DNA from: Hippasteria phrygiana
Taxonomy: Eukaryota; Echinodermata; Asteroidea; Valvatida; Goniasteridae
Length of the DNA: 64,000 nucleotides
Assembly: GCA_037893225.1 (NCBI GenBank)
Contig: JAZGUH010000261.1
Coordinates: 2,294,001 to 2,358,000 of the forward strand
Direction: 5' to 3'
Position numbers and translations under genes: made by a program. This document shows, piece by piece, positions 21,445 through 52,498 of this stretch (positions within the stretch are counted from its first letter, which is position 1; every line of letters begins with the position of its first letter). The notes beneath the pieces are model-generated. The model did not search any database, was not told where the DNA came from, and saw only the letters and a list, made by a program, of their open reading frames with translations.

Positions 21445-21809
21445 AGTAGTAGAGAAGGGGATCCTAGACATAAATTTTGTTTTCTTATTTCCCTCTCCCA
21501 ATTTCTCAGAGTTTTTAAAAAACCTTTAAAAAAAAATAATAATAATTAAAAAATCTAAAATTTTCAGGAGGTTTCCCTACTTTTAAACCTCAAAATCTCA
21601 ATCTCTAACTCAAATTATAAATTCCCCCAAATTATAAATTTATAATCTCTAACTCGAAAATATAAATTCCCAAATCCTAAACTCAAATCTAAAATCTCAA
21701 ACCAAATTTGCAAATCTAAATCTCTCAGAAAACCCGAGTCAAGCTACAACTTCAAGTCCAAGAAAAAATGAAAAAAATTATTTAGTTTAAAGAATAAAAT
21801 AGTTATCTA

Positions 21810-21816
21810 TTATAAA
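21810..21816 (+). promoter_or_regulatory. TTATAAA start-proximal motif of element 2 PolB (left arm)
   Basis: TTATAAA, one G, then ATG at 21818. The same context is kept in the right arm before the ATG at 51939 (- strand). Confidence 0.5.
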
Positions 21817-21817
21817 G

Positions 21818-24800
21818 ATGGAAAACATAATTATACCCGCAACGGGTTACACGCGTTGGACAAAAAACGATCTGAAAAAATACATCGACAAATATACCCT
21901 CACGTTGGGCCCACCAACCGGACGCGATGGCGCGTATATCAGACGAGACTTTCTATCGGCCATAAAAAGGAACGAAGCGCTATATAACAATTTGCGATCC
22001 AAGTCTAAAGAATCATTAGAACATTTAATCACCGATAAACATATTCCACTGGGCGAACCAACGGGGAAAAGGGGTCAGTACACTAAAAAAGATTTAGAAT
22101 CTGCCATACGACGATACTATAAAAAACCCGATGAAAAACTTGTTCCCTTAGATTTTAGCGAAACAGCTCCGAGACCATTCAAAAATTATTTACGTAATTA
22201 CGAGATGAATATCGACAGAATTCTCGTAGATCCTATAGCATTTTTTAACGAAAACAAACTTAAAATCATAGACGAATTGAAAGAAACGCTAAACGAATTT
22301 AGAAGCTTTAAATTTCAACTCGCATTTAAAGTTACGTTGAGAAAGTATAATCACGTAAACGACACTTTTACCGAAGTCACGAGCATGTTTTGTGGTTTTC
22401 AATCAGTCGTATTAAACGAAGGCGGAATAGAAAACCAAGTACAACAACAGATAGATATCATAATCGAAAAAATAGAAAAATTTCAAACAAACGGAAGCGG
22501 TTGGGTCATTTACGATTTAAAGGCGCTCTACATCAACGTTTCTAAATATCAACCGATAAGAGGCAGTTCTTATATCCCATTACCCCCTCACATAGCCCTT
22601 AAACACGCAGTCGTCAATGTAAAAAATATAGACCAACGATGCATAAGATGGGCGTTGGGAGCCGCTTTAGGGATATTTAAGCCCTCCGTCAAAGAATCGA
22701 TTAAAAACAACTCCAACTTTAAAATTCACTTTGATCAAACTTTTATCTACGAAAAAGACGACGATGGCTTAGACTTCACCGGCGTAGAGTTTCCAACCCC
22801 CATCGCAGATATCGGCAAGATCGAAAAACAAAATAATCTTTCTATAAGCGTTTTCGGTTATGGAAACAACAACATTTTCCCGCTGAGAATAACGACCGGC
22901 GATAAACCGGTCATAAATCTGTTGTTATTTTCTGAAGGAAACAATAATCATTACTGTTGGATAAAAAACCTAGACCGTTTATTGTCTAAAGAAACTAAAC
23001 ATAAAGAACGCAAATATTTTTGCGTGTGGTGTTTGCAACATTTTAGTAGGCAAGATATTTTAGACAGACACGAGATAGATTGTAGGGGTGTTAGCCAAAC
23101 CCCGGCTTTAGCGGTATTACCCGACTCAACCAACAACATTCTAAAGTTCAAAAACTTTAAAAAATAAACAACCGGTACCTTTTACTATATACGCGGACTT
23201 TGAAAGTATCTTAGTACCACTACAAACCCCAGATAAAAAAACGTTCACTATACAAAGACTCGTGAACATGAAGCATGCGGCTACGCATATATCATAATCG
23301 GGCCCGACGGGCAAGTCTTGGACTCGCCCAAAACTTATAGAGGGGCAGATGCAACATCAGATTTCTTATACAGTTTAACTCTAGAGAAAGCTAGAATCAA
23401 CGAGATATTTGAACGGCGCAAAGATATGATTTTTACCCCGCAAGATAAAATCGATTATGAAAAGGCTAAAGACTGTTGGATTTGCGGGTATTCTCTCGGC
23501 CGTAAAGAAAATACTTGCGAATGCGAATGTCCGGAACAAATTGGAGAAGAATTTGATTGCGAACCTAAATACTACTCTCTAGACATAAAAACTCCGAAAG
23601 AACTACTAACACTCATCAAAGACGGAGGAATAAAATTGGGAAAACCTAGTGGAAAAAGAGGCCAGCACCTTAAAAAGGACTTGCTACGCGCCATATGGTA
23701 CCATCCTAAACCTAGAAGATTTCAAAGAGCCGATGTAGACAAAAATAATCCGAAAAGTAAACATCCTCTAATATTTTGTGAGTTGTGTGATAAAGAGATA
23801 TACGCGTTTAGAAAATGTAGAGATCATTGCCACATCACTGGTAAGTACAGAGGAGCCGCTCATATGTGCTGTAACTTAAAATTACAAATAAAATCCGGAG
23901 TAACGCCAATCCCAGTCATTATTCATAATTTAGAAAATTACGACGCTCATTTGATCATGCAGAGTATTTCGAAAACCTGCGGAAAACTAAAGTGTATAGC
24001 TAAAACGTCCGAAAAATACATTTCATTTTCGGTAGGCCAACTCAAATTTTTAGATTCGTGTCATTTCTTAGCCACGTCGTTAGAAAAACTAGTAGCCGCC
24101 TGTCCGAGAGAAGCGTTTAGAACTATCGATAAAGCGCTAGTGCCAGCCGACCCCGCTAAACGCGATCTTTTAATTAAGAAAGGTGTATATCCGTACGAGT
24201 ACATGGATGATTTTGAACGATTTAACGAAACCAAACTTCCCGATAAACGTCATTTTTATAGCGGTCTAACCGATTCCGATATAAGCGACTCGGACGACGA
24301 ACACGCTAAAAAAGTATGGCAAACTTTTGACATTAAAGACTTGGGTGAATATCACGACCTCTACGTACGTATTGGCCGATGTAAACTCCTCAAAAAAAGT
24401 TCGGAAATTCAAGTTTGACTGACGATTTCTCTCTTGTTTCCAACTCCTTTTCCTTGAATTTGATATCATTGGGAAGCCCTGTTATTCTTCTTTACAATGA
24501 TGTATCATTTGTTATGATTAAGCAATTGAGGGATGTGCAGCACAGCTGAATATGGGGGTGGGTGTAAAGTGAAATGTTACAAAATGCATTGATATTGTAA
24601 AAAAGTGTATTGACTCTTGCTGTTAGGAGTTGTTTGGAGGATTGGTGTGTCTTGAATGATTCTCTGCTTACTAACCAATATTTAAAGGTTGTAAGCTTTA
24701 AATGTGTTAATGTGCTTGCGTTTCAAACAGAGTAAAAGAATTTGTCATTCTCTGCACTCTGTAACAAGAAGTCTCTCTCACAGTACAATGCAACACTCTA

Positions 24801-26676
24801 TCACTAACAAAAGCAAAAACAAGACGTAAGGAAAGTCTTTCTTTTCTGGTTTAATCATTCAACAGTTTCTTCATTGAACAATGTTAAGTCAAGAGCCTCG
24901 GTAGCGGGTGGACGATCCGAATGCAGCCACAACAGCCTGGCATTGGGGCAATCAAAAGAAGTTCTCCACTACATACTGTTCACGAGCCGGGTCACACGTT
25001 GCTGTGGGATGGCGTCCCATTCATCAGTCAGGATCTGTTGCAGATCTGTTGCACATTCCCATCCTCCAAGCAAAAGGGGAATACACTTTTGGACAATAGC
25101 AATGCATTTTGTAACATTTCACTTTACACCCACCCCCATATTCAGCTGTGCTGCACATCCCCAAAGTGCTTAATCATAACAAATGACACATCATTGTAAA
25201 GAAGAATAACAGGGCTTTCCAATGATACAAAATTAAAGGAAAAGGAGAAATCGTCTGTCAAACTTGAGTTTCCGAACTTTTTTGAGGAGTTTATTATTAT
25301 TGACCGATGTGTTTGAAAACTTTAGAAAACTCTGTATAGTAAATTACGGATTAGATCCGTGCCATTATTTCACATTACCCGGTCTAAGTTGGGACGCTTT
25401 ATTAAAACACTCGAAAGTCAAATTAGAACTCTTGACCGATATAGATCAGCATTTATTCATAGAGAAAGGAACCAGAGGGGGAATATCTAGCGTGGGTAGT
25501 ACTCGCTATGCCGAGGCTAATAACGAGTATCTAAAAGATTACGATCCCGATAAACCCAACTCGTATATTTCGTATCTAGATGCCAACAATTTGTACGGTT
25601 GGGCCATGTCTCAACCATTACCGTACGCAGATTTTAGGTGGATTGACCAACAAAAATTACCCCTGTTTACCACCGAATATATATTGTCTCTAGCCGACGA
25701 CTCTTTTTGGGGTTATATTTTTGAAGTGGATTTAGACTATCCAAAACATTTACACGACTTACACAACGGTTATCCTTTAGCACCCGTAAACCAAGTCATA
25801 CCTTTAGAATCGATGAGTCCTGATCAGCTAGACTTAATGGAAAAAACAGACTCACAACCGTCGAATGAAACTAAGTTGGTGGCGACGGGCGGACCAAGAA
25901 AGAATTACGTAACTCATTATAGAAATCTAAAATTTGACTTGCTTCACGGGCTAGTTATAACCCGAGTACATAGGGTTTTAAAGTTTACTCAAGCGCCTTG
26001 GATGAAATCTTACATCGATAAAAATACCCAACTCAGAAAAGAAGCTAAGTCTGATTTCGAAAAAGACGTTTCTAAATTGATGAACAACTCGGTATTTGGC
26101 AAAACTATGGAAGATGTTAGAAAGCGAATGGACGCTCACTTGTTAAGAGCCCACGAAGAAACTAAAATTCGTAAATTGATAGCCAAACCAAATTACAACA
26201 GCAGGATAATTTTTGAACGCTGCGATCTATTAATGATAAACATGTATAAAACTCAAGTTCTTTTAAACAAACCCGTCTATTGCGGTATGAGTATTTTAGA
26301 CCTTAGTAAACTTTTAATGTACGAATTTTATTACGATAAACTAAAAGTAAAATACAAAGACAAAGTCGATTTGATTTATACCGATACGGACTCGTTGCTC
26401 TTACGTATTGAAACTGAAGACCTATACAAAGACATGGAAAAAGACAAAGAATTATACGACTTGTCGAATTATCCGAAAGACCACTTTTTATACGACGATT
26501 CTAATAAGAAAATAATAGGTAAGTTCAAGGACGAATGTGGTGGAAAACCGATCAAAGAAGTGGTTTGTATCAGATCAAAAATGTACTCCATTTTTATGGA
26601 CGATGGGGAAAATATTAAGAAATCAAAAGGAGTCAGAAGGTACGTCGTTTCAAACGAGATAACTTATCAAGATTAT
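21818..26676 (+). pseudogene. Family B DNA polymerase, element 2 left arm (multiply broken)
   Basis: It is the same polymerase type as in element 1. Two N-terminal SAP/HeH-like repeats (KKYIDKY..LGPPTGR; ITDKHIPLGEPTGKRGQ) and a third inside the protein (IKDGGIKLGKPSGKRGQ) are visible. Exo I (YADFES, about 23195), an endonuclease VII-like insert (CELCDK...DHCHITG..RG, about 23780-23880), Exo II (NLENYDAH, about 23930), motif A (DANNLYGWAM, about 25580), motif B (NNSVFGK, about 26085) and motif C (YTDTDS, about 26378) are all present. The frame is broken near 23160 and near 23250-23310, by a 4-bp duplication near 24367, and by the Tc1-like element at 24384-25291. The C-terminus is deleted. This copy is a dead gene. 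Confidence 0.88.
24384..25291. mobile_element. 908-bp non-autonomous Tc1/mariner-type element with about 220-bp TIRs
   Basis: The ends AACTCCTCAAAAAA / TTTTTTGAGGAGTT are inverted, and similarity runs about 220 bp inward. TA at 24382-24383 and 25292-25293 is the duplicated target. The uninterrupted right arm of element 2 shows a single TA at this site. The interior on the - strand (about 24960-25060) reads a Tc1-like transposase tail (EWDAIPQQ..TRLVNSM), so this is an internally deleted transposon. It splits the left-arm PolB. Confidence 0.85.
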
Positions 26677-27124
26677 CTCGTGGTGTATCGAACATTTCGG
26701 CAGACGTAATCTAGCGCCTAAATCGTGTTTAATTTGTGGCTATGGAACTAGGTCACGTAATCAACTTTGTATGAATCATTCTACGAAAGGAAAACACCGG
26801 CTACAACTCATCGAAAATATGGCTAAAACTAGGTATAAAAGAGTTATAAAAGAACTCGATATAAAATTTAACCCCGAAAAACGTCGATGTTCTTGGTTAC
26901 TTTGTAGTAGCCCAAACCGCTGTAATAAGTCAACTGCCAAGTCTGACCCTATATATTGCTCTTTACACGCGTATCGATTTAAAAAAGTCGGTAGAGCCTA
27001 AGAGCCCTGTAATATCTGCGGTCGCGGTACTTTTTCTAAAAACGGTAGTTGCACCGAGTGTAATAAAATTAAGCACCGTGGCTTTAAAGCTTGCCCAATC
27101 AGATATAATAAGTCTAAGATATAA
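26677..27124 (+). pseudogene. Cys-rich zinc-binding-like ORF, left-arm copy (5' deleted, one stop)
   Basis: Copy of the right-arm ORF at 30123-30623. It lacks about the first 20 codons through the 270-bp deletion that joins it to PolB, and it has an in-frame TAA at about 27000 where the right arm reads Leu. The remaining CxxC/CxxxH clusters are conserved. Confidence 0.75.
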
Positions 27125-27273
27125 CTAGTCTTTATGTTAAATTTGCTGTTTAGCTAGCTGATAATTGCGTAGTTAGTTGATATCTAGACGTTTTTAAATT
27201 TCTGCTGTATAGATATACAACTAGATTTATTAAAAAATTTAAACGTATAAACGTATAAACGAATATTTATAAA
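27125..27273. other. Intergenic spacer before clamp gene
   Basis: A/T-rich, with TTTCTGCTGTATAGATATACA at about 27199-27219. The same half-palindromic motif recurs near 30040 (arm copy) and as a full palindrome, TGCTGTATAGATATACAGCA, near 52071 in the terminal non-coding DNA. It may be a regulatory or replication motif of this virus. Confidence 0.5.
27267..27273 (+). promoter_or_regulatory. TTATAAA abutting the clamp gene ATG
   Basis: TTATAAA-ATG with no gap, as at 14821 and 16283 of element 1, although the genes are unrelated. Confidence 0.55.
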
Positions 27274-28032
27274 ATGACCAGCAACATTTTTAGCGTAACC
27301 ATCAAGAGCGGTTATGTTATAAAATCTATCGTAAATATGCTGGGCTCCTTTATGCAAAAGACTCAGTTTAAAATCGACGATACGGGGTTGTATCACGTCT
27401 ATTACGATGAAAATACGAGTATTTATGTAGATATCGCTCTTCCTAGAGATCAGTTTTCAAAATTTAATTACTACGAGAAAGAGCCTATCTATTTCTTTTT
27501 AAATTTGAAACACCTACAAAAAATTACCAAGAGTATAAAACGTAAAGAATCTGTAAATTTAAAAATGAGCGACGATTATTTATCTATTACCGTTTATAAC
27601 GACTGTAATAGTTCGAAGGTATACACAATAGTAGTCGGGAGAATTAGAGATTGCGAAGCGATTCAAATTCCAAGCAAAGAATCTTATTATAACGCCCAAG
27701 TCGTAGAAAGTAAATGCTTTTCTAAAATCAAAAATATGATAAGCATGAGTAAATCGGTAGACTTGCGTATACATAAAAACTACCTGGCTATAAGTTGTAA
27801 AGAGGGTCAACTATATAGCTCTTGTCTTAAAATTGGGAAAAAGGACTATAAACCGTTGTATAACTATACGTTCGATAGCAAAAACTTTGCCGTCGTATTA
27901 AAAATGTGTAATTTAGAAAAACAGATTCAAATATTTGCCCCAAAAGATGAAGACGACCCTCTTAAATTGACAATATTAGCCGGTAATTTAGGAGTCGTAA
28001 CTTTGTATATAAAAGGACTAGCTATTTCATAG
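27274..28032 (+). CDS. PCNA-like DNA sliding clamp
   Basis: The product is 252 aa, close to the 255-265 aa of PCNA. The layout matches two clamp domains. An N-terminal helix (SGYVIKSIVNMLGSFMQ) leads into FKIDDTGLYHVYYDENTSIYV, comparable to the W-D-I-S-x-S-G-V...D-x-S-H-V block. Then come LNLKHLQKITKSIKRKESVNLKMSDDYLSI, comparable to the GVNLxxMSKILK...ITL segment, an interdomain connector, and a second domain repeating the pattern. It ends in LTILAGNLGVVTLYIKG, like the final β-strands of PCNA. Clamps tether polymerases to DNA, and protein-primed polymerases usually do without one, so it is unusual here. The frame is intact. The 3' end overlaps the convergent VLTF3-like gene by 11 bp. The assignment is by pattern and not by a search. 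Confidence 0.72.
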   Translation: MTSNIFSVTIKSGYVIKSIVNMLGSFMQKTQFKIDDTGLYHVYYDENTSIYVDIALPRDQFSKFNYYEKEPIYFFLNLKHLQKITKSIKRKESVNLKMSDDYLSITVYNDCNSSKVYTIVVGRIRDCEAIQIPSKESYYNAQVVESKCFSKIKNMISMSKSVDLRIHKNYLAISCKEGQLYSSCLKIGKKDYKPLYNYTFDSKNFAVVLKMCNLEKQIQIFAPKDEDDPLKLTILAGNLGVVTLYIKGLAIS

Positions 28033-28929
28033 GGATCAATTTCCAACCTAGGTACTCGAAAGCTTTCATCATAGCTTCTTCGTGTTCTTCTTCTTTGACT
28101 TTTGTTTTTATTATGTAAAAATCGCTCTTTTTACACTTATAAGAATTTTTTTGTAATAATTTATAAAGCTTGTAATTTACGCTCAGCGAATTTATTCTAT
28201 TCGTGTAGTTTACTTTTCTCAAAGCTTCTTCTAATTTGTCAAAATCTACCAATAAACGATCGACATAATCCGATATATCTGGACATTTCCTTTTTGTAAT
28301 TAAATTATAAATTAAATTTATATCGTCGTAAAAACTACCCAGGCCGTTTTCTGACAAAAACATATAAACTTGGTCTTTAGTTATACAATTTTTAGACGCT
28401 AAATTAGAACAAAGTTTATGTTGTACGATTTCTCTTTCTATAGTTTCAATAACTTTACAAATTTTAAAACAGTTTACATTTTGATCTCCCTGAAACTTTT
28501 TTATGGCGTCTTTAAAATGGCCCTTGCGAGTATGCGTATATTTATTCGATAAATTTACTCAATCTACATCTTTAAAACTAGAACAGAAATCTATGTCTCG
28601 TTCCGTTTTACATACCGCGCAGTATATACCGGCGTCGTCTTCGATAAAATTATTACTGCCGCATACGCAAGATATCGGTTGGCTCTTTAACAATGTTAAA
28701 TCGATGTCTATATATCTCGACGCAATCAGTAAATAGGCTCGTCTTATTTTTTTTGTCTTTTGTCTGAATCGTTTTTATAACTGAGAGACTTTATATAACC
28801 GCCGTTTTCCCACAGGTCTAAAATTTCGCAAGTTTGCCAGATAAAACAAAATTGTTGATGACTCGATAAATTGTTTCGAATTTTAAAATGTAAATTAACG
28901 ATATCTATGGTAGCATCAATTTCCCCCAT
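28022..28929 (-). pseudogene. VLTF3-like late transcription factor (one frameshift, one stop)
   Basis: The C-terminal segment (28022-28363) ends with a block DFYIIKTKVKEEEHEEAMMKAFEYLGWKLIP. This matches the conserved poxvirus/NCLDV VLTF3 C-terminus (F-x-x-LKT...H-D...LGW-x-F-I-P). Upstream in the same frame are a HF.DAIKKFQGDQN block, typical of VLTF3 cores, and two zinc-type pairs, CVCG (about 28664) and CAVC (about 28615). The frame is broken by TGA at 28559-28561 and by a shift at a T8 run (28747-28754) that separates the N-terminal 60 codons (start chosen at MGEIDAT, 28929). In large DNA viruses VLTF3 switches on late genes. It converges on the clamp gene. I am fairly confident of the family, less of the exact start. 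Confidence 0.7.
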
Positions 28930-29071: not shown

Positions 29072-29789
29072 TCTGAACTATAGATGAACTATAGATAACT
29101 AATAGATGAACTACAGATGGCCGATAGATGAACTATAGATGAACTATAGATGAACTATAGATGAACTATAGATAACTAATAGATGAACTACAGATGGCTG
29201 ATAGATGAACTGATAGATGAACTATAGATGAACTATAGATGAACTATAGATGAACTATAGATGAACTATAGATGAACTATGGATGAACTATAGAAAACTA
29301 ATAGATGAACTATAGATGAACTATAGATAACTGATAGATGAACTACAGATGGCTGATAGATGAACTATAGATAACTGATAGATAACTGATAGATAACTGA
29401 TAGATGAACTATAGATAACTGATAGATGAACTATAGATGAACTATAGATGAACTATAGATGCACTATAGATAACTGATAGATGAACTATAGATGAACTAT
29501 AGATAACTGATAGATGAACTATAGATGAACTATAGATAACTAATAGATGAACTATAGATAACTAATAGATGAACTGATAGATGAACTATAGATAACTAAT
29601 AGATGAACTATAGATGAACTATAGATAACTAATAGATGAACTATAGATGACCTATAGATAACTAATAGATGAACTATAGATGAACTATAGATAACTAATA
29701 GATGAACTATAGATAACTGATAGATGAACTACAGATGGCTGATAGATGAACTATAGATGAACTATAGATGAACTATAGATGAACTATAG
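29072..29789. repeat. 11-bp minisatellite (ATAGATGAACT and variants), about 720 bp
   Basis: Variants ATAGATGAACT, ATAGATAACTA, ATAGATAACTG and ACAGATGGCTG alternate in irregular higher-order order. It has no constant spacers and direct repeats, so it is not CRISPR-like. It fills the centre of the palindrome and directly abuts the truncated clamp gene copy. Confidence 0.95.
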
Positions 29790-29973
29790 AAAACTGATCT
29801 CTAGGAAGAGCGATATCTACATAAATACTCGTATTTTCATCGTAATAAACGTGATACAACCCCGTATCGTCGATTTTAAACTGAGTCTTTTGCATAAAGG
29901 AGCCCAGCATATTTACGATAGATTTTATAACATAACCGCTCTTGATGGTTACGCTAAAAATGTTGCTGGTCAT
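29789..29973 (-). pseudogene. Truncated copy of the PCNA-like clamp gene (first about 62 codons)
   Basis: Identical start and TTATAAA-ATG context to 27274. Homology stops after the codons for RDQFS, at GAAAACT, where the minisatellite begins. The few residues read after that come from the repeat. Confidence 0.9.
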
Positions 29974-30122
29974 TTTATAAATATTCGTTTATACGTTTAT
30001 ACGTTTACATTTTTAAATAAATCTAGTTGTTTATCTATACAGCAGAAATTTAAAAACGTCTAGATATCAACTAACTACGCAATTATCAGCTAGCTAAACA
30101 GCAAATTTAACATAAAGACTAG

Positions 30123-30623
30123 TTATATCTTAGACTTATTATATCTGATTGGGCAAGCTTTAAAGCCACGGTGCGTAATTTTATTACACTCGGTGCAACT
30201 ACCGTTTTTAGGAAAAGTACCGCGACCGCAGATATTACAGGGCTCTAAGGCTCTACCGACTTTTTTAAATCGATACGCGTGTAAAGAGCAATATATAGGG
30301 TCAGACTTGGCAGTTGACATATTACAGCGGTTTGGGCTACTACAAAGTAACCAAGAACATCGACGTTTTTCGGGGTTAAATTTTATATCGAGTTCTTTTA
30401 TAACTCTTTTATACCTAGTTTTAGCCATATTTTCGATGAGTTGTAGCCGGTGTTTTCCTTTCGTAGAATGATTCATACAAAGTTGATTACGTGACCTAGT
30501 TCCATAGCCACAAATTAAACACGGTTTAGGCGCTAGATTACGTCTGCCGAAATGTTCGATACACCACGGGTCTCCATCTTTTTCGCACGTAGTTAGCTTT
30601 CCGATGTTTAACCACTTACACAT
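30123..30623 (-). CDS. 166-aa Cys/His-rich, probable zinc-binding protein
   Basis: Four clusters of paired Cys with trailing Cys/His are visible: CIEHF; CLICGYGTRSRNQLCMNH; CSWLLCSSPNRC with YCSLH; and CNICGRGTFPKNGSCTEC. The middle is basic and helical (HRLQLIENMAKTRYKRVIKELD). It lies 31 bp after PolB and upstream of the clamp gene in the same orientation, so a replication or transcription role is plausible. I know no family for it. The intact copy is in the right arm, and the left-arm copy is truncated. Confidence 0.6.
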   Translation of the reverse strand: MCKWLNIGKLTTCEKDGDPWCIEHFGRRNLAPKPCLICGYGTRSRNQLCMNHSTKGKHRLQLIENMAKTRYKRVIKELDIKFNPEKRRCSWLLCSSPNRCNMSTAKSDPIYCSLHAYRFKKVGRALEPCNICGRGTFPKNGSCTECNKITHRGFKACPIRYNKSKI

Positions 30624-30654
30624 GATCTATATATATTATTATTATTATTAATTT

Positions 30655-32188: not shown

Positions 32189-32216
32189 TGTGGGTGGGTG
32201 TGTCAAAACGTGATGG

Positions 32217-33326: not shown

Positions 33327-33384
33327 ATTGATCTTCACAGTGGATATCAACACTTACATTTCCTACTTTTTCTACACACTACAG

Positions 33385-42105: not shown

Positions 42106-42123
42106 TTGTTCTCATTTGCTCAG

Positions 42124-42340: not shown

Positions 42341-42719
42341 TAATTTTTATTTGTATTTGTATTAATTTATTATTATTCTAATTATTATTATTATTATATT
42401 TGTTTATTTTTTATTTATTTATTTTAATTTTTTTTTATTATTTTTTTTTTTTCAAGTTTGAATTTAGAACTAAATTTTGCTTTTTATTAATTTGATTGAA
42501 GTTGAAATTTAAATTGATTTGCCTTAAGATGAATGTGTTGATTTTGAAATACAGAATAAACAATTCAAAACAAGATGATTGAAAAAAAGAAGAAGAATGA
42601 AACCAAGCAGTGTCTCTATTGTATATTTTCCTTCGGGGTGGTGTCAAGGTTTTCTTATCCTTCTTCTATGCATCGGCTATAAAAGATGAAACATTTTAAA
42701 ATTGTTCTCATTTGCTCAG

Positions 42720-43363: not shown

Positions 43364-43399
43364 ATGACGAAGTTGGGGCTGATCATCAATCATTTGAAG

Positions 43400-43726
43400 A
43401 TGTCGAGGCGTATGCATCACAACGCTCCCTACCTCCACGTGTTGGCCAAGGGAAGCGACAAACAACGCCAGGGTGTGCTCCAAGGAGCGAACAAAGAATT
43501 GATACATTGTTTATGTGAGTGCGCCCTCAACGTCCTTAATGGTAACATACTTCTTAAACCGTCTGAAAGGAAAAGATTGATGAGATATAAACGTCACATG
43601 CGAGTTCTCAGTAATAAGAAGATTGGCGTTCAAAAGAAGAAGAAAGCATTACGTCAAAAAGGAGGATTTCTCGGTGCTTTACTCACTCCAGTATTGAGCG
43701 CCCTTGGTGGATTGCTGTTTAAATAA
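43400..43726 (+). CDS. Small basic virion/core-type protein with GGFLGALL C-terminus
   Basis: The product is 108 aa from MSRRMHHNAPYLHVL; an upstream ATG at 43364 would add 12 residues. A Cys-containing helical segment (LIHCLCECALNVLNGN) is followed by a strongly basic stretch (RKRLMRYKRHMRVLSNKKIGVQKKKKALRQK) and a hydrophobic Gly-rich end (GGFLGALLTPVLSALGGLLF). This layout is very common in animal Polintons. I infer a DNA-condensing core or membrane-active minor protein, by analogy with small adenovirus core proteins. There is no direct homology evidence. Confidence 0.75.
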   Translation: MSRRMHHNAPYLHVLAKGSDKQRQGVLQGANKELIHCLCECALNVLNGNILLKPSERKRLMRYKRHMRVLSNKKIGVQKKKKALRQKGGFLGALLTPVLSALGGLLFK

Positions 43727-43728
43727 AC

Positions 43729-44232
43729 ATGGAGCACACCAAGAAAATGGTCCTGGTACCTCAAGAAACTTTGACAAAACTACAATCGACCAGACGATTG
43801 GAACAAACACCAACCACGCGCGTTGTACATAGTTTGGATGGTGAGATGAGGGAGCTCTTGGAACGACAAGATCTTTCAGACGAGGATAAAATTAAACTGT
43901 ACCACCAGACACTGTACCGGTACATGAACCTGAATAAACAGAGAATGGCACCACTGAGCATGACCTTAGAGACCCAGAAGGAAAAAGACCATCCACCTAA
44001 ACTTGAGTTGATGACGGACGTGGAGCACGGGCCACCGAAATTGGAGAAGGAACCCGGCTTTGGCGATACCTCCAAAGTAAAGGTGCGCTTGCACGAAGAA
44101 CCGGCAGAGGAGGAAGAATACCAGCTGCCCCGGCTGTTTGCCGAAGCATCCCATCTGAAAACTACGCCCAAAACAAGGAAAAAGAGAAGTAAAAAATCAC
44201 CAAGTTCGAAGCCCAAATGGAGTCCATATTAA
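43729..44232 (+). CDS. 167-aa conserved Polinton protein of unknown function
   Basis: It starts 2 nt after the preceding stop. The block KMVLVPQETLTKLQ...LDGEMRELLERQDLSDEDKIKLYHQTLYRYMNL (residues 6-68) is a pattern that recurs in small ORFs next to Polinton integrase genes. The second half is charged and low complexity, ending in a lysine-rich tail. The function is unknown. Confidence 0.7.
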   Translation: MEHTKKMVLVPQETLTKLQSTRRLEQTPTTRVVHSLDGEMRELLERQDLSDEDKIKLYHQTLYRYMNLNKQRMAPLSMTLETQKEKDHPPKLELMTDVEHGPPKLEKEPGFGDTSKVKVRLHEEPAEEEEYQLPRLFAEASHLKTTPKTRKKRSKKSPSSKPKWSPY

Positions 44233-44391
44233 CACGGACACTACCGTCAACTTTATCATTTGAGGCTTTACCCACCATGGAGTGTTGTCAACCAAAACCA
44301 GGCTGTGGATTTAAACGGCTTGCCGGAAAAATTCGTTGTTGGTGCGTTTGCTGTCGCAGTAACGTCATAATTGAAAACACAGATTTTAGTG

Positions 44392-45468
44392 ATGGCACAG
44401 CACGACACGTACCTGAAACAAGTGTACTTCGACCCAAAAAATCCAGCCGCGTTTGGTGGTGTGGAGGCTGTCTACCGTGCTGCCCGAAAAGACGGCGTCA
44501 ACATCAACCGGAAGAAGATCAAATCCTGGTTAAGTAAGCAACCGACATACACGCTACATAAACCGATACGTAGACAATTTAAGCGTAACAGAGTCATCGT
44601 GGGCGGCATTGACCAACAGTGGCAGGCGGATCTGGTGGATATGAGGTCGCTCAGTCGGTTTAATGGAAACTATATCTATTTGCTGACGTGTATCGACGTA
44701 TTGTCCAAATACGCATGGGCGATTCCACTGAAAAATAAAACCGGCACTTCGCTCATTGACGGTTTTAAAAAAATCTTACAAAGTGGGCGGAAGCCCAAAA
44801 TGCTACAGACCTATAAAGGCACCGAGTTCACCAATCGCCAATTCCAGTCCTTTCTCAAGAAAAACAAAATCGGGTTCTTCACTACTCAAAATGAAACAAA
44901 AGCCAGCGTGGTGGAGAGATTCAACAGGACGCTGAAGACAAAGATGTACAAATATTTCACGGCTACCAACAGCCACGTTTACGTCAAGGCATTGCCGAAA
45001 TTAATGACCGCGTACAATTACGCTTTTCACAGAAGCATAAAGACCGCCCCGGTCACGGTCAATAGTGAAAATGCCGAAAGTATTTGGAAAACCCTGTACA
45101 GCGATAACGGGACTGCAGTCAAAGCTACTTCGTTCAAGTTCAGCGTGGGCGATACGGTGCGCATTAGTATGATGACCAGACCGTTTAGGAAAGGCTATCT
45201 TCCAAGCTGGACCACCGAATTGTTCACGGTCAGCGCTCGAATCCCGCGCCATCCTCCCGTGTACAAGTTGAAAGATTATGATGGAGAAGAATTGGACGGT
45301 ACGTTCTACGAACAAGAACTTCAACGAGTGATTAAATTGGACGATCTGTACCGCGTGGAAAAGGTACTACGGACGCGAAAAAAACGAGGAAAAACGGAGC
45401 ACTTTGTCAAGTGGATGGGCTACCCGGACAAGTTTAACAGTTGGGTAACGAGTCTGCGCAAATTATAA
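44392..45468 (+). CDS. Retroviral-type integrase with chromodomain; second catalytic Asp is Tyr
   Basis: The product is 358 aa from the ATG at 44392 (MAQHDTYLKQVYFDP); the frame upstream has no ATG. The RNase H-fold core has Asp80 in QADLVDM and Glu175 in VVERFNRTLK, at the expected places. The position of the second Asp, before KGTEF, is Tyr141 (TAT, 44812-44814), so the DDE triad is incomplete and the enzyme should be inactive. The C-terminus has an SH3-like part and a chromodomain (YRVEKVLRTRKKRGKTEHFVKWMGYP...SWV) that may read histone marks at target sites. Element 1 integrase lacks this domain. Confidence 0.9.
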   Translation: MAQHDTYLKQVYFDPKNPAAFGGVEAVYRAARKDGVNINRKKIKSWLSKQPTYTLHKPIRRQFKRNRVIVGGIDQQWQADLVDMRSLSRFNGNYIYLLTCIDVLSKYAWAIPLKNKTGTSLIDGFKKILQSGRKPKMLQTYKGTEFTNRQFQSFLKKNKIGFFTTQNETKASVVERFNRTLKTKMYKYFTATNSHVYVKALPKLMTAYNYAFHRSIKTAPVTVNSENAESIWKTLYSDNGTAVKATSFKFSVGDTVRISMMTRPFRKGYLPSWTTELFTVSARIPRHPPVYKLKDYDGEELDGTFYEQELQRVIKLDDLYRVEKVLRTRKKRGKTEHFVKWMGYPDKFNSWVTSLRKL

Positions 45469-45518
45469 AACTCCAACGACATCATAATTTTGTCCACACA
45501 GTGCGCCTAAGCTTCAAC

Positions 45519-46265
45519 ATGGCGGACTCATTTTACGTCACGCTCCCTAGCAACAGTTCGATGGACAGTCACCCCAACAACACATTGAGCCATTTCTTTG
45601 TCAATTTACCCACACCCCTATCATTCGAAGGAGAGTGGGAAGTGGCACTGGCTGAAGTTACTTACCCTCACCGCTGGTTTAATGTAACTGAAGGAAACAA
45701 CCAACTGGCGTGCTCGGCCGAGGGTTCTAATGCCGAACTTCACATGCACCGCATACCGGAGGGGTACTACCCGACACCTGAGGAATTATTCGAGAGTTTT
45801 GTACCTCCGATCGAGCATGGCAATCTAGTCCGATTTACTTACAACAAATATATTCAAAAAGTCATAGTAAAGACGGGTAGCAGTGTGTATCTTAAGTTGC
45901 TGGGTCGTCTAGCGAACCTGCTCGGCTTTGACGAGGGCGCGGTCGTGACGGGTACCGAAAAGAGCACGAGAGTAGTGGACCTGCAGCAATTTTATTCATT
46001 ATTCATCTACTCCAATATTGTCGAGTACCACACCGTGGGAGACACACGTGCGCCCCTATTACGTATCGTGAATGTGGATGGGAAGTATGGAAAAACCGTT
46101 ACAAAAACCTACGACAGTCCGCATTATATGCACCTGAAGCACAGGTTGATGGACACGATCGAAATAGATATAAGGGACGGCACGGGCCAACCTATTCCAT
46201 TTGTGAGCGGGAGAGTCATTGTGAAACTTCACTTTAGAAAAAGTCGCTCGTCCTACTTTAACTGA
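45519..46265 (+). CDS. Penton-like minor capsid protein
   Basis: The product is 248 aa from MADSFYVTLPSNSS; a longer open frame from 45441 overlaps the integrase end. A β-rich single jelly-roll pattern is visible: GEWEVALAEVTYPHRWFNV, IPEGYYPTPEELFE, LLGFDEG, LQQFYSLFIYSNIVEYHTVGD, LLRIVNV and IEIDIRDGTGQPIPF. This is the Polinton minor capsid protein expected at vertices. It lies directly before the other virion genes. Motif order links it to the two penton-like genes of element 1. Confidence 0.8.
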   Translation: MADSFYVTLPSNSSMDSHPNNTLSHFFVNLPTPLSFEGEWEVALAEVTYPHRWFNVTEGNNQLACSAEGSNAELHMHRIPEGYYPTPEELFESFVPPIEHGNLVRFTYNKYIQKVIVKTGSSVYLKLLGRLANLLGFDEGAVVTGTEKSTRVVDLQQFYSLFIYSNIVEYHTVGDTRAPLLRIVNVDGKYGKTVTKTYDSPHYMHLKHRLMDTIEIDIRDGTGQPIPFVSGRVIVKLHFRKSRSSYFN

Positions 46266-46270
46266 TCATC

Positions 46271-46696
46271 ATGAGGAGCCATTATCTACCCAGCAGCAAG
46301 CACTACGAAGATTACTACGTCGGACAAGTGGGGCGTGGTCATCCGGTGTTCACTGGACCGAGAAGTCAGAAGGGATACGGTCTTGGGGGAATTTTAGGGG
46401 GACTTTTCCGCTCGGCCATGCCCCTGATCAAACAAGGAGCCAAGACATTGGGTCGCGAAGCTCTAAGGACCGGTGTAGGTATTGCGCAAGATGCACTAGA
46501 GGGTAAAAGTATCAAGTCGGCGGCCAAAGACAGACTTGAGCGTGCCGGACGCAATATGGTCCACACGGCCCTGAGCGGTGTGAATACCCGGCTTTCACAA
46601 GGCCAACGACGTGGTATAAAAAGGAAAGCAAACGGCAGACGTGCCACTTCCTCGTCCAGCAGGAGATCGAAAAGATCAAAGGACATATTTGATTAA
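46271..46696 (+). CDS. 141-aa Gly-rich, basic minor virion protein (pVI-like layout)
   Basis: A short N-terminal region ending in GYGLGGILGGLFRSAMPLIKQGAKTLGREALRTG (about 36-70, amphipathic) precedes an Ala/Lys helical part and a Ser/Arg/Lys tail with RRSKRSK, a likely nuclear signal. This is common in Polintons between the penton and MCP genes. An internal capsid protein with membrane-active or DNA-binding character is likely (inference from layout and place). Confidence 0.75.
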   Translation: MRSHYLPSSKHYEDYYVGQVGRGHPVFTGPRSQKGYGLGGILGGLFRSAMPLIKQGAKTLGREALRTGVGIAQDALEGKSIKSAAKDRLERAGRNMVHTALSGVNTRLSQGQRRGIKRKANGRRATSSSSRRSKRSKDIFD

Positions 46697-46727
46697 GTGC
46701 TTTACGCGCTAACCTACAACCGTCATC

Positions 46728-48059
46728 ATGTCGCTGTTGCACAATAACTCGTGCGAATGCACTAAATCCGAACTGGACATTTTTTCCGTCCCACCCACAC
46801 AAACTAGTATCGAAAAAGGACAGTGGGAGGAATTTCATCCCATTTCTACCATTTCGGATGGGGGACCGATAGAATTCTTCGTGCCTGGATCCGGAGAAGA
46901 ATACATGGATTTGAACCAAACGCAGCTGTATATCAGAGCAAAAGTCACCAAAGCAGATGGCTCTAACCTGACAGATGCCGACCACGTGGGTCCAGTCAAT
47001 TTATTTCTACAATCTCTATTCAGCCAGATTGATGTGAGTTTGAACGATCGGTTGATTTCCCCTTCCACACCTACCTACCCCTATCGCGCAATGCTTGAAA
47101 CCCTACTCAGCTATGGCGGTGATGCTAAGCAATCCCAGCTTACCGCCGCTTTGTTTTACAAGGACACCGCCGGCAAGATGGACAATGCAGACCCACAGGC
47201 AGACGATGATGTGGCCAATCTGGGCCTGAAGAAGAGATACGCGTTTACAAAAAACAGCAGCGTGGTAGACATGATCGGACCGATACACAGCGACATTTTC
47301 TTTCAAGACAAGCACATGTTAAATGGCGTAGATTTGAAACTGAAACTGATCCGCAGCAGCGACGCCTTCTGCCTCATGGCGTCCGGGGCCAACCCCACCT
47401 ACAAAGTGGTCATCCAGAACGCGTCCGTGTTTGTCAGGAAAGTCAAAGTCAGTTCGGCCGTCATGCTGGGGCACATAAAGGCTTTGGAGAAAGGCACCGC
47501 CAAATATCCCATCAAGCGCAATCTGTGCAAGATGGTGTCCGTGCCCCGCGGTAACCTAACCCTCACCCAGGATCACGTGTTTCTCGGGCAACTACCGAAC
47601 CGTATCGTGGTGGGATGTGTGACCAACACAGCGTTCAACGGCCGATATGCAAAAAATCCCTTCAAATTTCAACATATGAATGTCAACTTTTTGACGGTTC
47701 ACATTGACGGGGAACAAATACCTTATTCCCCACTAAAGCCTAAATTTGCCGAACCGTCCAAAAATTACATCAGAGCCTATCAGACCCTCTTCTCCGGTAC
47801 GGATAAAATGTACCAAGACGAGGGCAACAGCATTACTCGTGAGGACTACGCCGGAGGGTACACACTGTTTGCTTTTGATCTGAGTCCAGACTTGTCCGTT
47901 GGAGGACACTTCAATCTCGTGAAGCGGGGCAACCTGAGGCTAGAGGTGCATTTTGCCAGACCACTGGATGAAACCATCAACGTCATCATCTACGCCGAGT
48001 TTAACAACATACTGGAAATTGACCAGGCTCGCAACGTCATCTTTGACTACAGCAGTTAA
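46728..48059 (+). CDS. Major capsid protein (double jelly roll, hexon-like)
   Basis: The product is 443 aa. The N-terminal part has a classical Polinton MCP pattern (DIFSVPPTQTSIEKG, EFFVPGSGEEYMDL.QTQLYIRAKV), then DHVGPVNLFLQSLFSQIDVSLNDRLISPS, TYPYRAMLETLLSYG and HSDIFFQDKHMLNGVDLKLKL. The C-terminal strands include YTLFAFDLSPDLS and GNLRLEVHFARPLDETINVIIYAEFNN. This family is often annotated as an uncharacterised host protein in animal genomes. The frame is intact. The protease gene starts 17 bp downstream. Confidence 0.92.
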   Translation: MSLLHNNSCECTKSELDIFSVPPTQTSIEKGQWEEFHPISTISDGGPIEFFVPGSGEEYMDLNQTQLYIRAKVTKADGSNLTDADHVGPVNLFLQSLFSQIDVSLNDRLISPSTPTYPYRAMLETLLSYGGDAKQSQLTAALFYKDTAGKMDNADPQADDDVANLGLKKRYAFTKNSSVVDMIGPIHSDIFFQDKHMLNGVDLKLKLIRSSDAFCLMASGANPTYKVVIQNASVFVRKVKVSSAVMLGHIKALEKGTAKYPIKRNLCKMVSVPRGNLTLTQDHVFLGQLPNRIVVGCVTNTAFNGRYAKNPFKFQHMNVNFLTVHIDGEQIPYSPLKPKFAEPSKNYIRAYQTLFSGTDKMYQDEGNSITREDYAGGYTLFAFDLSPDLSVGGHFNLVKRGNLRLEVHFARPLDETINVIIYAEFNNILEIDQARNVIFDYSS

Positions 48060-48075
48060 ACCACACGTCGACAGC

Positions 48076-48603
48076 ATGGATAGTTATGAAATCACCCGGA
48101 TTTTGAAAAATGACCGTATCACCAAGCATTACTTTAGAGGAGTTTTTGCCTGCGACCAGCTGCCCAAACACTACCTCCCCCGGCCGAGCGCCCTCGTTTT
48201 CAACACAGATCCATCCACGAAACCCGGACAACATTGGGTGGTCATTTACATCACGGGAGACGGAGAGGGCGAATATTTCGACTCCTACGGACAACCGGCG
48301 AAGCTACCCCAGGTCAAGCAATTCCTCCAGAAAAACGTCACGTGCATCCGATACAACTGCCGATCCCTGCAGGGCCCATTGTCAGCCGTTTGTGGACAAT
48401 ATTCCATCTTCTACCTGCTGCAACGCTGCCGGGGATTAGACATGACCAAAATTACGCTCTTATTTTCTTCGGATAAAAGAGACAACGATGTACTCGTTAA
48501 TGAATTCATAAGGAAACACTTTCCTCGTGTAAACACATCGGTGTATGACGTAGAATTTCTTAAAAAGCAAATTGCAAGAGCTTTGATCAACAGCTTAACG
48601 TAA
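48076..48603 (+). CDS. Adenain-like capsid maturation cysteine protease
   Basis: The product is 175 aa from MDSYEITRIL; the frame is open further up within the MCP gene but that part is not conserved in character. Catalytic residues are visible in adenain order and spacing: His53 (GQHWVVIYI), Asp69 (EYFDSYG) and Cys106 (AVCGQYSIFYL). The length is close to adenovirus protease (about 205 aa). It would cleave core and minor capsid proteins during maturation. It is the last gene of the element, and the frame is intact. Confidence 0.9.
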   Translation: MDSYEITRILKNDRITKHYFRGVFACDQLPKHYLPRPSALVFNTDPSTKPGQHWVVIYITGDGEGEYFDSYGQPAKLPQVKQFLQKNVTCIRYNCRSLQGPLSAVCGQYSIFYLLQRCRGLDMTKITLLFSSDKRDNDVLVNEFIRKHFPRVNTSVYDVEFLKKQIARALINSLT

Positions 48604-48968
48604 CTCTCTGTGATTTCTTCGGTGATGACTAATTCATTTATTGTTTTCAATGTTTTATAAGCTTAGCGTGATAGTAGTTGTTGCTTAACAGTCGGTGAGA
48701 ATTATTGTTTTTGGTTTATTGTTGTTTTTTTTAATCCGTGTATTTTTAACTGTAGACATCTTTAGCGTTTCATTTTGTTTTAAACCTTTTGTACCGATTA
48801 TATTTTCAACTGTAGATTATAGTCATTGTTTATCCGTACATGGTTTTGGTGAAATAAAATTCGCATAAATGTATATTGCCCGTTGACTACATAAGGAATT
48901 CTGTTGAATTCCGGTTGGTTTTAGGCACCCCGTGTCGTCTCTTATTTTCCATGCGTTCGTGTCTCTAC
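48604..48968. other. AT-rich right end of element 3
   Basis: No gene is seen. AATAAA-type signals occur (for example about 48853-48858), which may serve polyadenylation of the + strand cluster. Confidence 0.6.
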
Positions 48969-49146
48969 CACAATCCGGCACCACTCTCGGAGGCGGTGCA
49001 GAAGGTGCAGGCGATAGGCGCCAGCTGCACCGCCAAATGAGGGAGGCAGCTCCAGCAGCACCGCCAGCACCGCGCCTCGAGGCGGTGGCGCCGCAATTCG
49101 AGGCAGCACCGCCAATAGGGGTCTCACTGGCTCCGTATATACTACT
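48969..49146 (-). repeat. Element 3 right TIR
   Basis: Reverse complement of 32011-32188 with few mismatches, ending ATATACTACT. Confidence 0.95.
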
Positions 49147-49152
49147 CTCGGC
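49147..49152. repeat. Target-site duplication CTCGGC, right copy (element 3)
   Basis: Equals 32005-32010. Confidence 0.95.
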
Positions 49153-51939
49153 ATAGCGAGTACTACCCACGCTAGATATTCCCCCCTCTGGTTCCTTTCT
49201 CTATGAATAAATGCTGATCTATATCGGTCAAGAGTTCTAATTTGACTTTTGAGTGTTTTAATAAGGCGTCCCAACTTAGACCGGGTAATGTGAAATAATG
49301 GCACGGATCTAATCCGTAATTTACTATACAGAGTTTTCTAAAGTTTTCAAACACATCGGTCAATAATAATACATCGGCCAATACGTAGAGGTCGTGATAT
49401 TCACCCAAGTCTTTAATGTCAGAAGTTTGCCATACTTTTTTAACGTGTTCGTGGTCCGAGTCGCTTATATCGGAATCGGTTAGACCGCTATAAAAATGAC
49501 GTTTATCGGGAAGTTTAGTTTCGTTAAATCGTTCAAAATCATCCATGTACTCGTACGGATATACACCTTTTTTAATTAAAAGATCGCGTTTAGAGGGGTC
49601 GGCTGGCACTAGCGCTTTATCGATAGTTCTAAACGCTTCTCTCGGACAGGCGGCTACTAGTTTTTCTAACGACGTGGCTAAGAAATGACACGAATCTAAA
49701 AATCTGAGTTGGCCTACCGAAAATGAAATGTATTTTTCGGACGTTTTAGCTATACACTTTAGTTTTCCGCAGGTTTTTGAAATACTCTGCATGATCAAAT
49801 GAGCGTCGTAATTTTCTAAATTATGAATAATGACTGGGATTGGCGTTACTCCGGGTTTTATTTGTAATTTTAAGTTACAGCACATATGAGCGGCTCCTCT
49901 GTACTTACCAGTGATGTGGCAATGATCTCTACATTTTCTAAACGCGTATATCTCTTTATCACACAACTCACAAAATATTAGAGGATGTTTACTTTTCGGA
50001 CTATTTTTGTCTACATCGGCTCTTTGAAATCTTCTAGGTTTAGGATGGTACCATATGGCGCGTAGCAAGTCTTTTTTAAGGTGCTGGCCTCTTTTTCCAC
50101 TAGGTTTTCCCAATTTTATTCCTCCGTCTTTGATGAGTGTTAGTAGTTCTTTCGGAGTTTGTATGTCTAGAGAGTAGTATTTAGGTTCGCAATCAAATTC
50201 TTCTCCAATTTGTTCCGGACATTCGCATTCGCAAGTATTTTCTTTACGGCCGAGAGAATACCCGCAAATCCAACAGTCTTTAGCCTTTTCATAATCGATT
50301 TTATCTTGCGGGGTAAAAATCATATCTTTGCGCCGTTCAAATGTCTCGTTGATTCTAGCTTTCTCTAGAGTTAAACTGTATAAGAAATCTGATGTTGCAT
50401 CTGCCCCTCTATAAGTTTTGGGCGAGTCTAAGACTTGCCCGTCGGGCCCGATTATGATATATGCGTAGCCGCATGCTTCATGTTCACGAGTCTTTGTAGT
50501 GAACGGTTTTTTATCTGGGGTTTGTAGTGGTACTAATTAAGATACTTTCAAAGTCCGCGTATATAGTAAAAGGTAACTGTTGTATATTTTTAAAGTTTTT
50601 GAACTTTAGAATGTTGTTGGTTGAGTCGGGTAATACCGCTAAAGCCGGGGTTTGGCTAACACCCCTACAATCTATCTCGTGTCTGTCTAAAATATCTTGC
50701 CTACTAAAATGTTGCAAACACCACACGCAAAAATATTTGCGTTCTTTATGTTTAGTTTCTTTAGACAATAAACGGTCTAGGGTTTTTATCCAACAATAAT
50801 GATTATTGTTTCCTTCAGAAAATAACAACAGATTTATGACCGGTTTATCGCCGGTCGTTATTCTCAGCGGGAAAATGTTGTTGTTTCCATAACCGAAAAC
50901 GCTTATAGAAAGATTATTTTGTTTTTCGATCTTGCCGATATCTGCGATGGGGGTTGGAAACTTTACGCCGGTGAAGTCTAAGCCATCGTCGTCTTTTTCG
51001 TAGATAAAAGTTTGATCAAAGTGAATTTTAAAGTTGGAGTTGTTTTTAATCGATTCTTTGACGGCGGGCTTAAATATCCCTAAATCGGCTCTCAACGCCC
51101 ATCTTATGCATCGTTGGTCTATATTTTTTACATTGACGACTGCGTGTTTAAGGGCTATGTGCGGGGGTAATGGGATATAAGAACTGCCTCTTATCGGTTG
51201 ATATTTAGAAACGTTGATGTAGAGCGCCTTTAAATCGTAAATGACCCAACCGCTTCCGTTTGTTTGAAATTTTTCTATTTTTTCGATTATGATATCTATC
51301 TGTTGTTGTACTTGGTTTTCTATTCCGCCTTCATTTAATACGACTGATTGAAAACCAAAAAACATGCTCCTGACTTCGGTAAAAGTGTCGTTTACGTGAT
51401 TATACTTTCTCAACGTAACTTTAAATGCTGTTGAGTTGAAATTTAAAGCTTCTAAATTCGTTTAGCGTTTCTTTCAATTCGTCTATGATTTTAAGTATGT
51501 TTTCGTAAAAAAATGCTATAGGATCTACGAGAATTCTGTCGATATTCATCTCGTAATTACGTAAATAATTTTTGATTGGTCTCGGAGCTGTTTCGTTAAA
51601 ATCTAAGGGAGCAAGTTTTTCATCGGGTTTTTTATAGTATCGTCGTATGGCAGATTCTAAATCTTTTTAGTGTACTGACCCCTTTTCCCCGTTGGTTCGC
51701 CCAGTGGAATATGTTTATCGGTGATTAAATGTTCTAATGATTCTTTAGACTTGGATCGCAATTTTTTATATAGCGCTTCGTTCTTTTTTATGGCCGATAG
51801 AAAGTCTCGTCTGATATACGCGCCATCGCGTCCGGTTGGTGGGCCCAACGTGATGGCATATTTAAATGTCGATGTATTTTTTCAGATCGCTTTTTGTCCA
51901 ACGCGTGTAACCCGTTGCGGGTATAATTATGTTTTCCAT
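49147..51939 (-). pseudogene. Family B DNA polymerase N-terminal part, element 2 right arm (frameshifted)
   Basis: Mirror copy of the left-arm PolB from its ATG (51939, with TTATAAAG just upstream) to the element 3 insertion. The SAP/HeH-like repeats, Exo I, endonuclease VII-like insert and Exo II are all recognisable. Open pieces are 51657-51848, 50511-51413 and 49172-50323. Breaks lie near 51865 (extra bases), 51660, 51420, and near 50535 where an ATTA insertion follows Exo I. Several breaks differ from those in the left arm, so the arms decayed separately. Confidence 0.88.
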
Positions 51940-52498
51940 CTTTATAATAGATAACTATTTTATTCTTTCAACTAAATAATTTTTTCATTTTTTCTTGGCA
52001 TGGTTTTTATAATATTTTTGAAGGGTCTTTTTTCTTGTTTTCTTTTTTTTGTCGATGATTTTAAATTTCTGCTGTATAGATATACAGCAATTTTAAATAA
52101 ATTAGATTATATGACTTGAAGTTGTAGCTTGACTCGGGTTTTCTGAGAGATTTAGATTTGTAAATTTGGTTTGAGATTTCAGATTTGAGTTTAGGATTTG
52201 GGAATATATAATTTCGAGTTAGAGATTTAAATTTGTAATTTGGAGGAAGTATAATTTGAGTTTTAGATTTGGGAATTTATAATTTCGAGTTAGAGATTAT
52301 AAATTTAGAATTTGGGGGAATTTATAATTTGAGTTAGAGATTGAGATTTTGAGAGGTTTAAAAGTGGGGAAACCTCCTAAAAAATTTTGATTTTTAAATT
52401 ATTAAAAAAAATTAAAAGGTTTTTTAAAAACTCGGAGAAATTGAGAGAGCGAAATAAAAAAAAAAAATTATGTCTAGGATCCCCCCTTCTCTACTACT
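51940..52498 (-). repeat. Element 2 terminal non-coding region/TIR, right copy
   Basis: Reads inward AGTAGTAGAGAAGGGG..., then an A/T-rich stretch with repeated units of AATCTCTAACTCGAAATTATAAATTC type. It contains two segments missing from the left copy, including one with the palindrome TGCTGTATAGATATACAGCA near 52071. Confidence 0.85.

Follow-up and report, generated by a model that had tools for sequence, protein, structure and literature searches.

When an inverted copy of one end takes the place of the opposite end in a linear, protein-primed element, is the product a dead end or can it persist as a lineage? This question is raised by a palindromic Polinton-like element in a 64,000-nt stretch of the Hippasteria phrygiana genome (GCA_037893225.1, JAZGUH010000261.1:2,294,001-2,358,000, forward strand; henceforth the window). 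Adenovirus and other defective genomes carry one end duplicated in inverted form, and linear protein-primed replicons with such a duplicated end are usually seen as dead ends. A sequence-only reading of the window had interpreted the element as such a copy-back defective genome, integrated with helper proteins. We find instead that palindromic elements are an established family in this genome, of which the window element is one copy.

One Polinton end is present twice, in inverted orientation

Self-BLAST pairs window positions 21434-27458 (+) in pieces with 52507-29789 (-), and coordinate subtraction gives arms of ~5.10 and ~5.57 kb, in agreement with the inverted arms (~5.1 and 5.6 kb around a 2.3-kb centre) of the sequence-only reading. 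Alignment confirmed that a single viral end (i.e., terminal inverted repeat (TIR), PolB, a Cys-rich open reading frame (ORF) and the start of a sliding-clamp gene) is present twice in inverted orientation, and that both outer ends are the same TIR: AGTAGTAG lies at 21445 and its complement at 52498, with flanking GCGCC in direct orientation. The features are as follows.

21445..52498 (no strand): whole palindromic element including nested insertions, from alignment and ends
21440..21444 (+): left copy of the target duplication, GCGCC
52499..52503 (+): right copy of the target duplication, GCGCC
21445..27458 (+): arm 1, with TIR, PolB, Cys-rich ORF and the first 185 bp of the clamp gene
29789..52498 (-): arm 2, with the content of arm 1 inverted; split by the nested Polinton
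21445..21760 (+): outer TIR, starting AGTAGTAG
21818..26676 (+): arm 1 PolB, split by 24384-25293, frame-broken, 3' end deleted
30655..51967 (-): arm 2 PolB, split by 32011-49146, frame-broken; DNA_pol_B_2 match at 49172-50323 (E 2e-7)
26681..27121 (+): Cys-rich ORF of arm 1, with one stop specific to this arm
30126..30626 (-): Cys-rich ORF of arm 2
27459-29788: unique centre (2.3 kb), with the rest of the PCNA gene, a VLTF3-like gene and a minisatellite
27274..28032 (+): sliding clamp of 252 aa, PCNA-like (PCNA_N E 2.3e-9), spanning the arm/centre border
28025..28774 (-): VLTF3-like transcription factor, in two pieces separated by an in-frame stop; PF04947 match at 28025-28558 (E 1.1e-25)
29074..29790 (+): 11-bp minisatellite, 65 units, at the arm 2 junction
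24384..25293 (no strand): later insertion of ~0.9 kb with inverted ends, arm 1 only
32011..49146 (no strand): later Polinton insertion, arm 2 only, 6-bp target duplication CTCGGC, integrase at 44371-45468

The VLTF3-like gene was not among the genes listed by the sequence-only reading; its N-terminal piece was assigned because the two pieces form one frame with VLTF3 in another copy, L013. A match to PCNA sequences with solved structures (E 2.5e-8) supports the identity of the clamp, and scans for Rfam families and tRNAs gave no match.

Piecewise alignment put arm divergence at 1.53% (40/2617) over 21758-24383, 0.89% (2/224) over 25292-25515, 0.77% (9/1171) over 25506-26676 and 1.15% (9/780) over the innermost stretch, 26679-27458. 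Chance is excluded as the source of this inverted repeat because it extends for kilobases at 98-99% identity. Arm 1 lacks ~275 bp that are present in arm 2 (30569-30843). The outer 0.3 kb is more divergent (6.6%, plus indels of 71 and ~114 bp), and in the outer 160 bp the ends differ at 17 of 152 sites, far above the level of the arms; the outer TIR ends (21445-21600 vs. 52340-52498) are ~9 times more diverged than the arms.

The two arms differ by 60 substitutions (outer 0.3 kb excluded), 56 of them in reading frames (12 silent, 43 replacing and 1 stop), as expected under neutral evolution (crude omega 0.93, p 0.87). Judging from open stretches and indels, all frame breaks in the aligned parts of PolB and the Cys-rich ORF are confined to one arm or the other. 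Both arms thus appear to have started from a single open gene and to have decayed since as fossils; such an origin fits both the neutral differences and the absence of a visible common break. One-arm-only breaks and neutral drift make it doubtful that, in the window copy, the arms had separate viral parents or underwent prolonged conversion. Two independent full-length parents inserted back to back were rejected on the neutral arm differences, the grouping of the arms (see below) and the direct outer duplication; for the window copy, an old element homogenised by conversion was rejected since no common frame break was seen. The window copy aged neutrally after insertion and received two insertions.

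Palindromic copies across the genome

The sequence-only reading had proposed a genome search for more copies. We searched 944 Mb in 1285 contigs with the centre, scoring 40 of 100 candidates, and obtained at least 42 matches, at 40 places. For 20 of the 41 matches outside the window we read 10 kb of surrounding sequence, and for 19 more only the right side (3 kb for 10 of them, 1.5 kb for 9), adding 201-bp left pieces for the 12 right-only reads that showed a right arm; the 2 remaining matches are second pieces of C137 places. Inverted PolB was found on both sides at 28 of the 40 centre-bearing places (window included), and 27 of these are independent as far as tested, L011 and L012 being one insertion duplicated with its flanks. 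The other places comprised two (C210) with a short right arm consisting of TIR and PolB start only (left arm unread), four ordinary ones (L013-L016) with the TIR end 2.7-3.3 kb past the centre, an ambiguous one (L032) where the inverted PolB is just 67% alike, and five (L024, L063, L066, L067 and L068) that went unseen; for L068 (C559), a later search found inverted PolB 6 kb rightward. Three of the ordinary copies (L013-L015, on C152) match one another beyond the element end.

A search with PolB (L023 as query) gave a similar picture: among the 40 scored out of 951 first-look candidates, 32 matches form 16 facing pairs (one of them, on C57, 14 kb apart), two of which are one duplicated insertion. 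TIR-to-TIR spacing over 18 pairs, counting the duplicated C607 insertion twice, was 12.0-16.7 kb plus one of 39.4 kb (median 13.9 kb), with 4 of the 40 full TIR matches unpaired. Across the family, the unique centre spans 2-3.6 kb in a unit of ~13-14 kb with arms of ~5 kb. As a control, the window's two complete Polintons have TIRs of only 270 and 178 bp; Polintons here are therefore not palindromic as a rule.

The palindrome itself inserts

Perfect direct 5-bp duplications flank eight of the nine independent insertions for which both ends were read, and all eight differ: GCGCC (window), CCTTG, GGGTT, CATGT, CCTCG, GGGGG, TAACC and CCTCA. Given that copies have distinct target duplications of their own, the palindrome itself inserts, which upholds the claim that the window element was integrated in this form. 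The ends of a tenth insertion, L009 (a sibling of the window element on the same contig), were looked for and not found, and its single read end region is closer to the right end of the window element than to the left. In the ninth (C869, read as L023/L039/L059) there is no direct duplication, and the host flanks are mirrored over ~2.27 kb as read, the first 110 bp being identical and the following 2158 bp containing 4 differences. These mirrored flanks may stem from an inverted duplication larger than the element or from two haplotypes folded together in the assembly.

Such flanks, with a level of difference that two haplotypes might give, would be expected if the palindromes were assembly artefacts (i.e., fold-back joins at repeats). 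The chance that this explains the family is close to negligible: direct duplications lie within differing flanks at the window element and at seven more insertions, and the window arms carry different insertions and 60 substitutions.

Beyond both ends of the window element, at 0.3-0.4 kb, lies a 110-bp inverted repeat with 91% identity (21030-21137 and 52911-53019), which is probably a dispersed repeat. A stretch near L009 (L055:504-613) is 85% like window 21273-21382.

Inherited junctions, near-identical arms and a selected polymerase

The window element and L009 have the same inner junction. Seven copies of a group that we call clade B have one junction in common (one approximately), four further copies (again one approximately) have a closely related junction with 37-46 bp in place of 110-115 bp of the former, and L010 has a junction of its own. 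Because inner junctions are common to several copies, the palindromic form is inherited. This pattern suggests a single palindromic founder for clade B, with arm boundaries that either shift over time or had more than one origin. In a tree of 21 centres, the ordinary L013-L016 group with the window, L009 and L010.

These junctions bear on the idea that palindromes were made in the host chromosome after ordinary insertion, when a break in the right half was repaired by copying the left half from the inverted TIR. Such repair would preserve the target duplication, and the excess divergence of the window's outer TIR and the inverted host flanks on C869 are both in its favour. We nevertheless judge it very improbable, given that seven copies have a common junction and four a closely related one and that their flanks differ where ends were read, that no frame break common to the window arms was seen, and that the two ends of clade-B copies show just 0-3 differences over the 62-210 outermost bases aligned. 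In the C39 copy, the two ends match at 258 of 259 positions.

At each of the 15 palindromic loci covered over 10 kb, the two arms are 98.95-100% identical in their largest aligned block, and some smaller blocks fall to 96.9%; in L019, L023 and L025 the arms are exact over 2.9 kb and the compared PolB stretch is open. In an arm tree of 13 copies (L012, L017 and L021 excluded), 12 arm pairs are sisters; under midpoint rooting the window pair is not, as L009 falls within it. Between copies, PolB dN/dS has a median of 0.21 (range 0.045-0.65, 66 pairs) among the 12 open-frame rows kept out of 16 examined (L010, L018, L020 and L027 dropped), indicating from codon comparisons that PolB is under purifying selection.

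It follows that the sequence-only interpretation, in which one copy-back event gave a defective genome that helper proteins then integrated, stands in one part and fails in another. One end is indeed duplicated in inverted form round a unique loop, and the structure of the window copy, whose arms appear to descend from one open PolB, would suit a single event. By contrast, a formation that happened only once is extremely improbable considering that L009 has the exact window junction, that there are 25 further independent palindromic places, and that PolB is selected between copies. Nor was the element a one-off that was not maintained: 28 of 40 places, common junctions, distinct duplications, near-identical arms and a selected polymerase all counter this. 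A single copy-back event may still have been the origin of the founder.

A probable helper-dependent lineage replicating as a palindrome

We consider it likely that these elements are a helper-dependent Polinton lineage, founded by end duplication and now replicating and inserting as a palindrome. Under this scenario, a parent with PolB at one end and an ordinary TIR at the other would have lost the latter end and gained the PolB end a second time, inverted, either through copy-back or through break-induced copying begun at the TIR. From two identical ends, the palindrome would then be copied by its own, putatively protein-primed PolB; displaced strands would snap back through the ~5-kb arms, and repair of the duplex would keep the arms identical. 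Integrase, plus capsid if any, would come from autonomous Polintons of the same genome.

Several observations weigh against this scenario. Four centre-bearing places are not palindromic (two of them independent, given that the C152 copies match past their ends) and five are unseen. The outer 0.16 kb of the window element is far more diverged than its arms, and the C869 copy has inverted host flanks (~2.27 kb read) with no direct duplication. The arms of L009 differ from each other (0.0175) nearly as much as from those of the window element (0.0180). No free or replicating palindrome DNA was seen, no helper is tied to the family, and the family's duplication is 5 bp vs. 6 bp in the nested Polinton. 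Finally, arm conversion inside the host genome could also keep arms alike.

The last point amounts to a different account, in which the elements are palindromic but their arms are kept alike mainly by host gene conversion after insertion rather than during replication. Long inverted repeats do recombine, the TIRs of Galileo offer a published parallel (PMC3573991, in its available part), and L010, whose frames are broken, still has a 1.55-kb arm block at 99.9% identity. Yet the window arms differ neutrally at 56 in-frame sites with no common break seen, which means that little conversion occurred there, and in L019, L023 and L025 the arms are exact over 2.9 kb with the compared PolB open. We regard this account as possible, although unlikely.

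Gene content and the missing genes

Our preferred reading, a helper-dependent lineage, requires that genes be supplied from elsewhere, and the claim that the window element has no capsid, ATPase or integrase gene was borne out: none was found in it. The copy on C869 (318514-332290), the one inventoried most fully, contains open PolB, Cys-rich, PCNA and VLTF3 (303 aa) genes and a 223-aa Death-domain ORF; its ORFs of at least 100 aa are limited to these five kinds, with no integrase, capsid or ATPase among them (1.45 kb of the mirror arm being unread), so that neither the capsid nor the packaging ATPase expected of a Polinton was seen in it. No rve domain was detected in the scanned ORFs of the window arms, the window centre or the C869 copy. 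The family does have terminal inverted repeats with AGTAGT-type ends, and the window PolB is 61% identical to that of element 1, a complete Polinton in the same window.

The Death-domain ORF (L023:5631-6299, -) is carried by clade-B palindromes and has no match in the window, L009 or L010. Its assignment rests on Pfam (E 2.8e-5, 24.6 bits vs. a cut-off of 22.6), as there was no match among PDB sequences. Its dN/dS is 0.35 (10 pairs from 5 rows chosen among copies with the full ORF). The product is possibly a modulator of host cell death. In an ordinary C152 copy (L013:5023-6161, -), two ORFs of 161 and 107 aa lie between VLTF3 and the TIR; they have no convincing match in the palindromic L009, L010, L019 and L023 or in the window.

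A search with VLTF3 found four relatives at 52-57% identity, on contigs of 1.1-1.6 kb, and an alignment search found PolB relatives at 43-45% on two IMG/VR contigs. Ten ORFs of these two contigs were scanned: both integrase and A32 ATPase occur in L081, and no PCNA or VLTF3 was detected among the ten. A search with PCNA against 5.8 billion proteins returned 144 candidates, none confirmed, and a search with one PolB piece against viral contigs matched one stretch, likewise not confirmed.

Possible helpers and a possibly exchangeable centre

Integrase action in trans is inferred from the missing genes together with the abundance of related integrases. Of 2175 candidate integrases of the element 1 type, 117 were scored, all 95-100% identical to that of the window; an element 1-like helper supplying proteins in trans is thus possible. 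None of the 117 scored out of 2175 lies within 20 kb of a VLTF3 match (88 in the genome), except element 1 beside the window element. Alternatively, the family might be autonomous for integration through an unrecognised function of its own PolB, Cys-rich or Death-domain protein, and its 5-bp duplications are indeed unlike the 6 bp of the nested Polinton. We find this improbable, since no integrase domain was found in the scanned ORFs and the AGTAGTA ends are the same as those of the window's two integrase-bearing Polintons.

Some palindromes appear to have another centre. The C860 and C272 TIRs are 93 and 96% identical to the C607 TIR, and in each case 201-bp pieces at mirror positions are PolB in opposite orientations, identical to each other; no VLTF3 match lies between the TIRs of either, although a decayed VLTF3 could escape. 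At C529:798430-810417, a facing PolB pair 4.2 kb apart is also without a VLTF3 match. At least three palindromes with no such match between their arms (centres unread) suggest that the centre may be replaceable. Whether palindromic Polintons constitute a lasting class of mobile satellite, i.e., a PolB-arm chassis copied as a snap-back duplex, inserted by the integrases of autonomous Polintons and carrying an exchangeable centre, seems to us evenly balanced.

Relation to known systems

Defective adenovirus genomes are laboratory or de novo products, whereas the form described here is inherited and multiplied in a genome. The same difference separates it from the human cytomegalovirus (HCMV) Towne/AD169 variants, in which one genome end is swapped for an inverted copy of the other (PMC2885757). 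As far as the available portions of the cited articles go, linear replicons are known to acquire such a structure when template switching or replacement of an arm duplicates one end (Streptomyces PMC5869714; HCMV PMC2885757). The Streptomyces replicon is linear and capped by terminal proteins, and recombination at inverted homology puts a copy of one arm in place of the other (PMC5869714), but it is a bacterial chromosome and not an integrating element. Galileo elements of Drosophila have TIRs that grow by recruiting internal sequence (PMC3573991); their longest named TIR is 1.26 kb, whereas each arm of our family holds a selected polymerase gene.

With Polinton/Maverick (adintovirus-like) elements, the family has in common a PolB with the polymerase-B signature, TIRs with AGTAGT ends (an AGTAGT-type motif is described for vertebrate elements in the available part of PMC8097293) and a target duplication. 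It differs in that no integrase, capsid or packaging ATPase was found, PolB lies inside ~5-kb arms, the duplication is 5 bp rather than the 6 bp typical of Polintons (PMC12747079, available part), and PCNA, VLTF3-like and Death-domain genes are carried. Adintovirus-like insertions of Amoebidium (PMC11244446) likewise combine VLTF3 with an adintovirus-type PolB in an integrated element, but they encode capsid proteins, complete ones are ~30 kb, and the available part of that article does not mention a palindrome. Among the literature matches listed, a set outside which most subscription papers lie, titles and abstract openings describe neither a palindromic Polinton nor PolB inside TIRs. We found no paper on Polintons with non-autonomous or defective wording, and the string "palindrom" is absent from the main texts of PMC11071308, PMC4642659 and PMC6431247.

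The end-duplicated form described here is passed on, has multiplied and is subject to selection in a large genome. Its many natural copies lend themselves to studying how inverted arms stay identical, how Polinton ends may be used by integrases in trans, and whether such a satellite is a burden on its helper or silences it.

Other elements in the window

Element 1 (2501-17373; PolB, integrase, A32 ATPase, 270-bp TIR at 99.6% identity) is a complete Polinton with a tandem duplication at 6994-8277. It interrupts a retroelement, without a clear target duplication: SCAN, H2C2 and rve domains lie to one side of it, and RT, RNase H and the C-terminus of the integrase to the opposite side, a domain order that we take to be Gmr1-like. 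The SCAN domain, like the Death domain of clade B, is in keeping with an animal host. The nested Polinton (32011-49146) has a chromodomain integrase, an ORF with WW and PC4 domains (32745-33326), a PolB only 24% like that of L023 and a recent 560-bp tandem duplication (41781-42935). A 16-bp minisatellite occupies 61926-62134.

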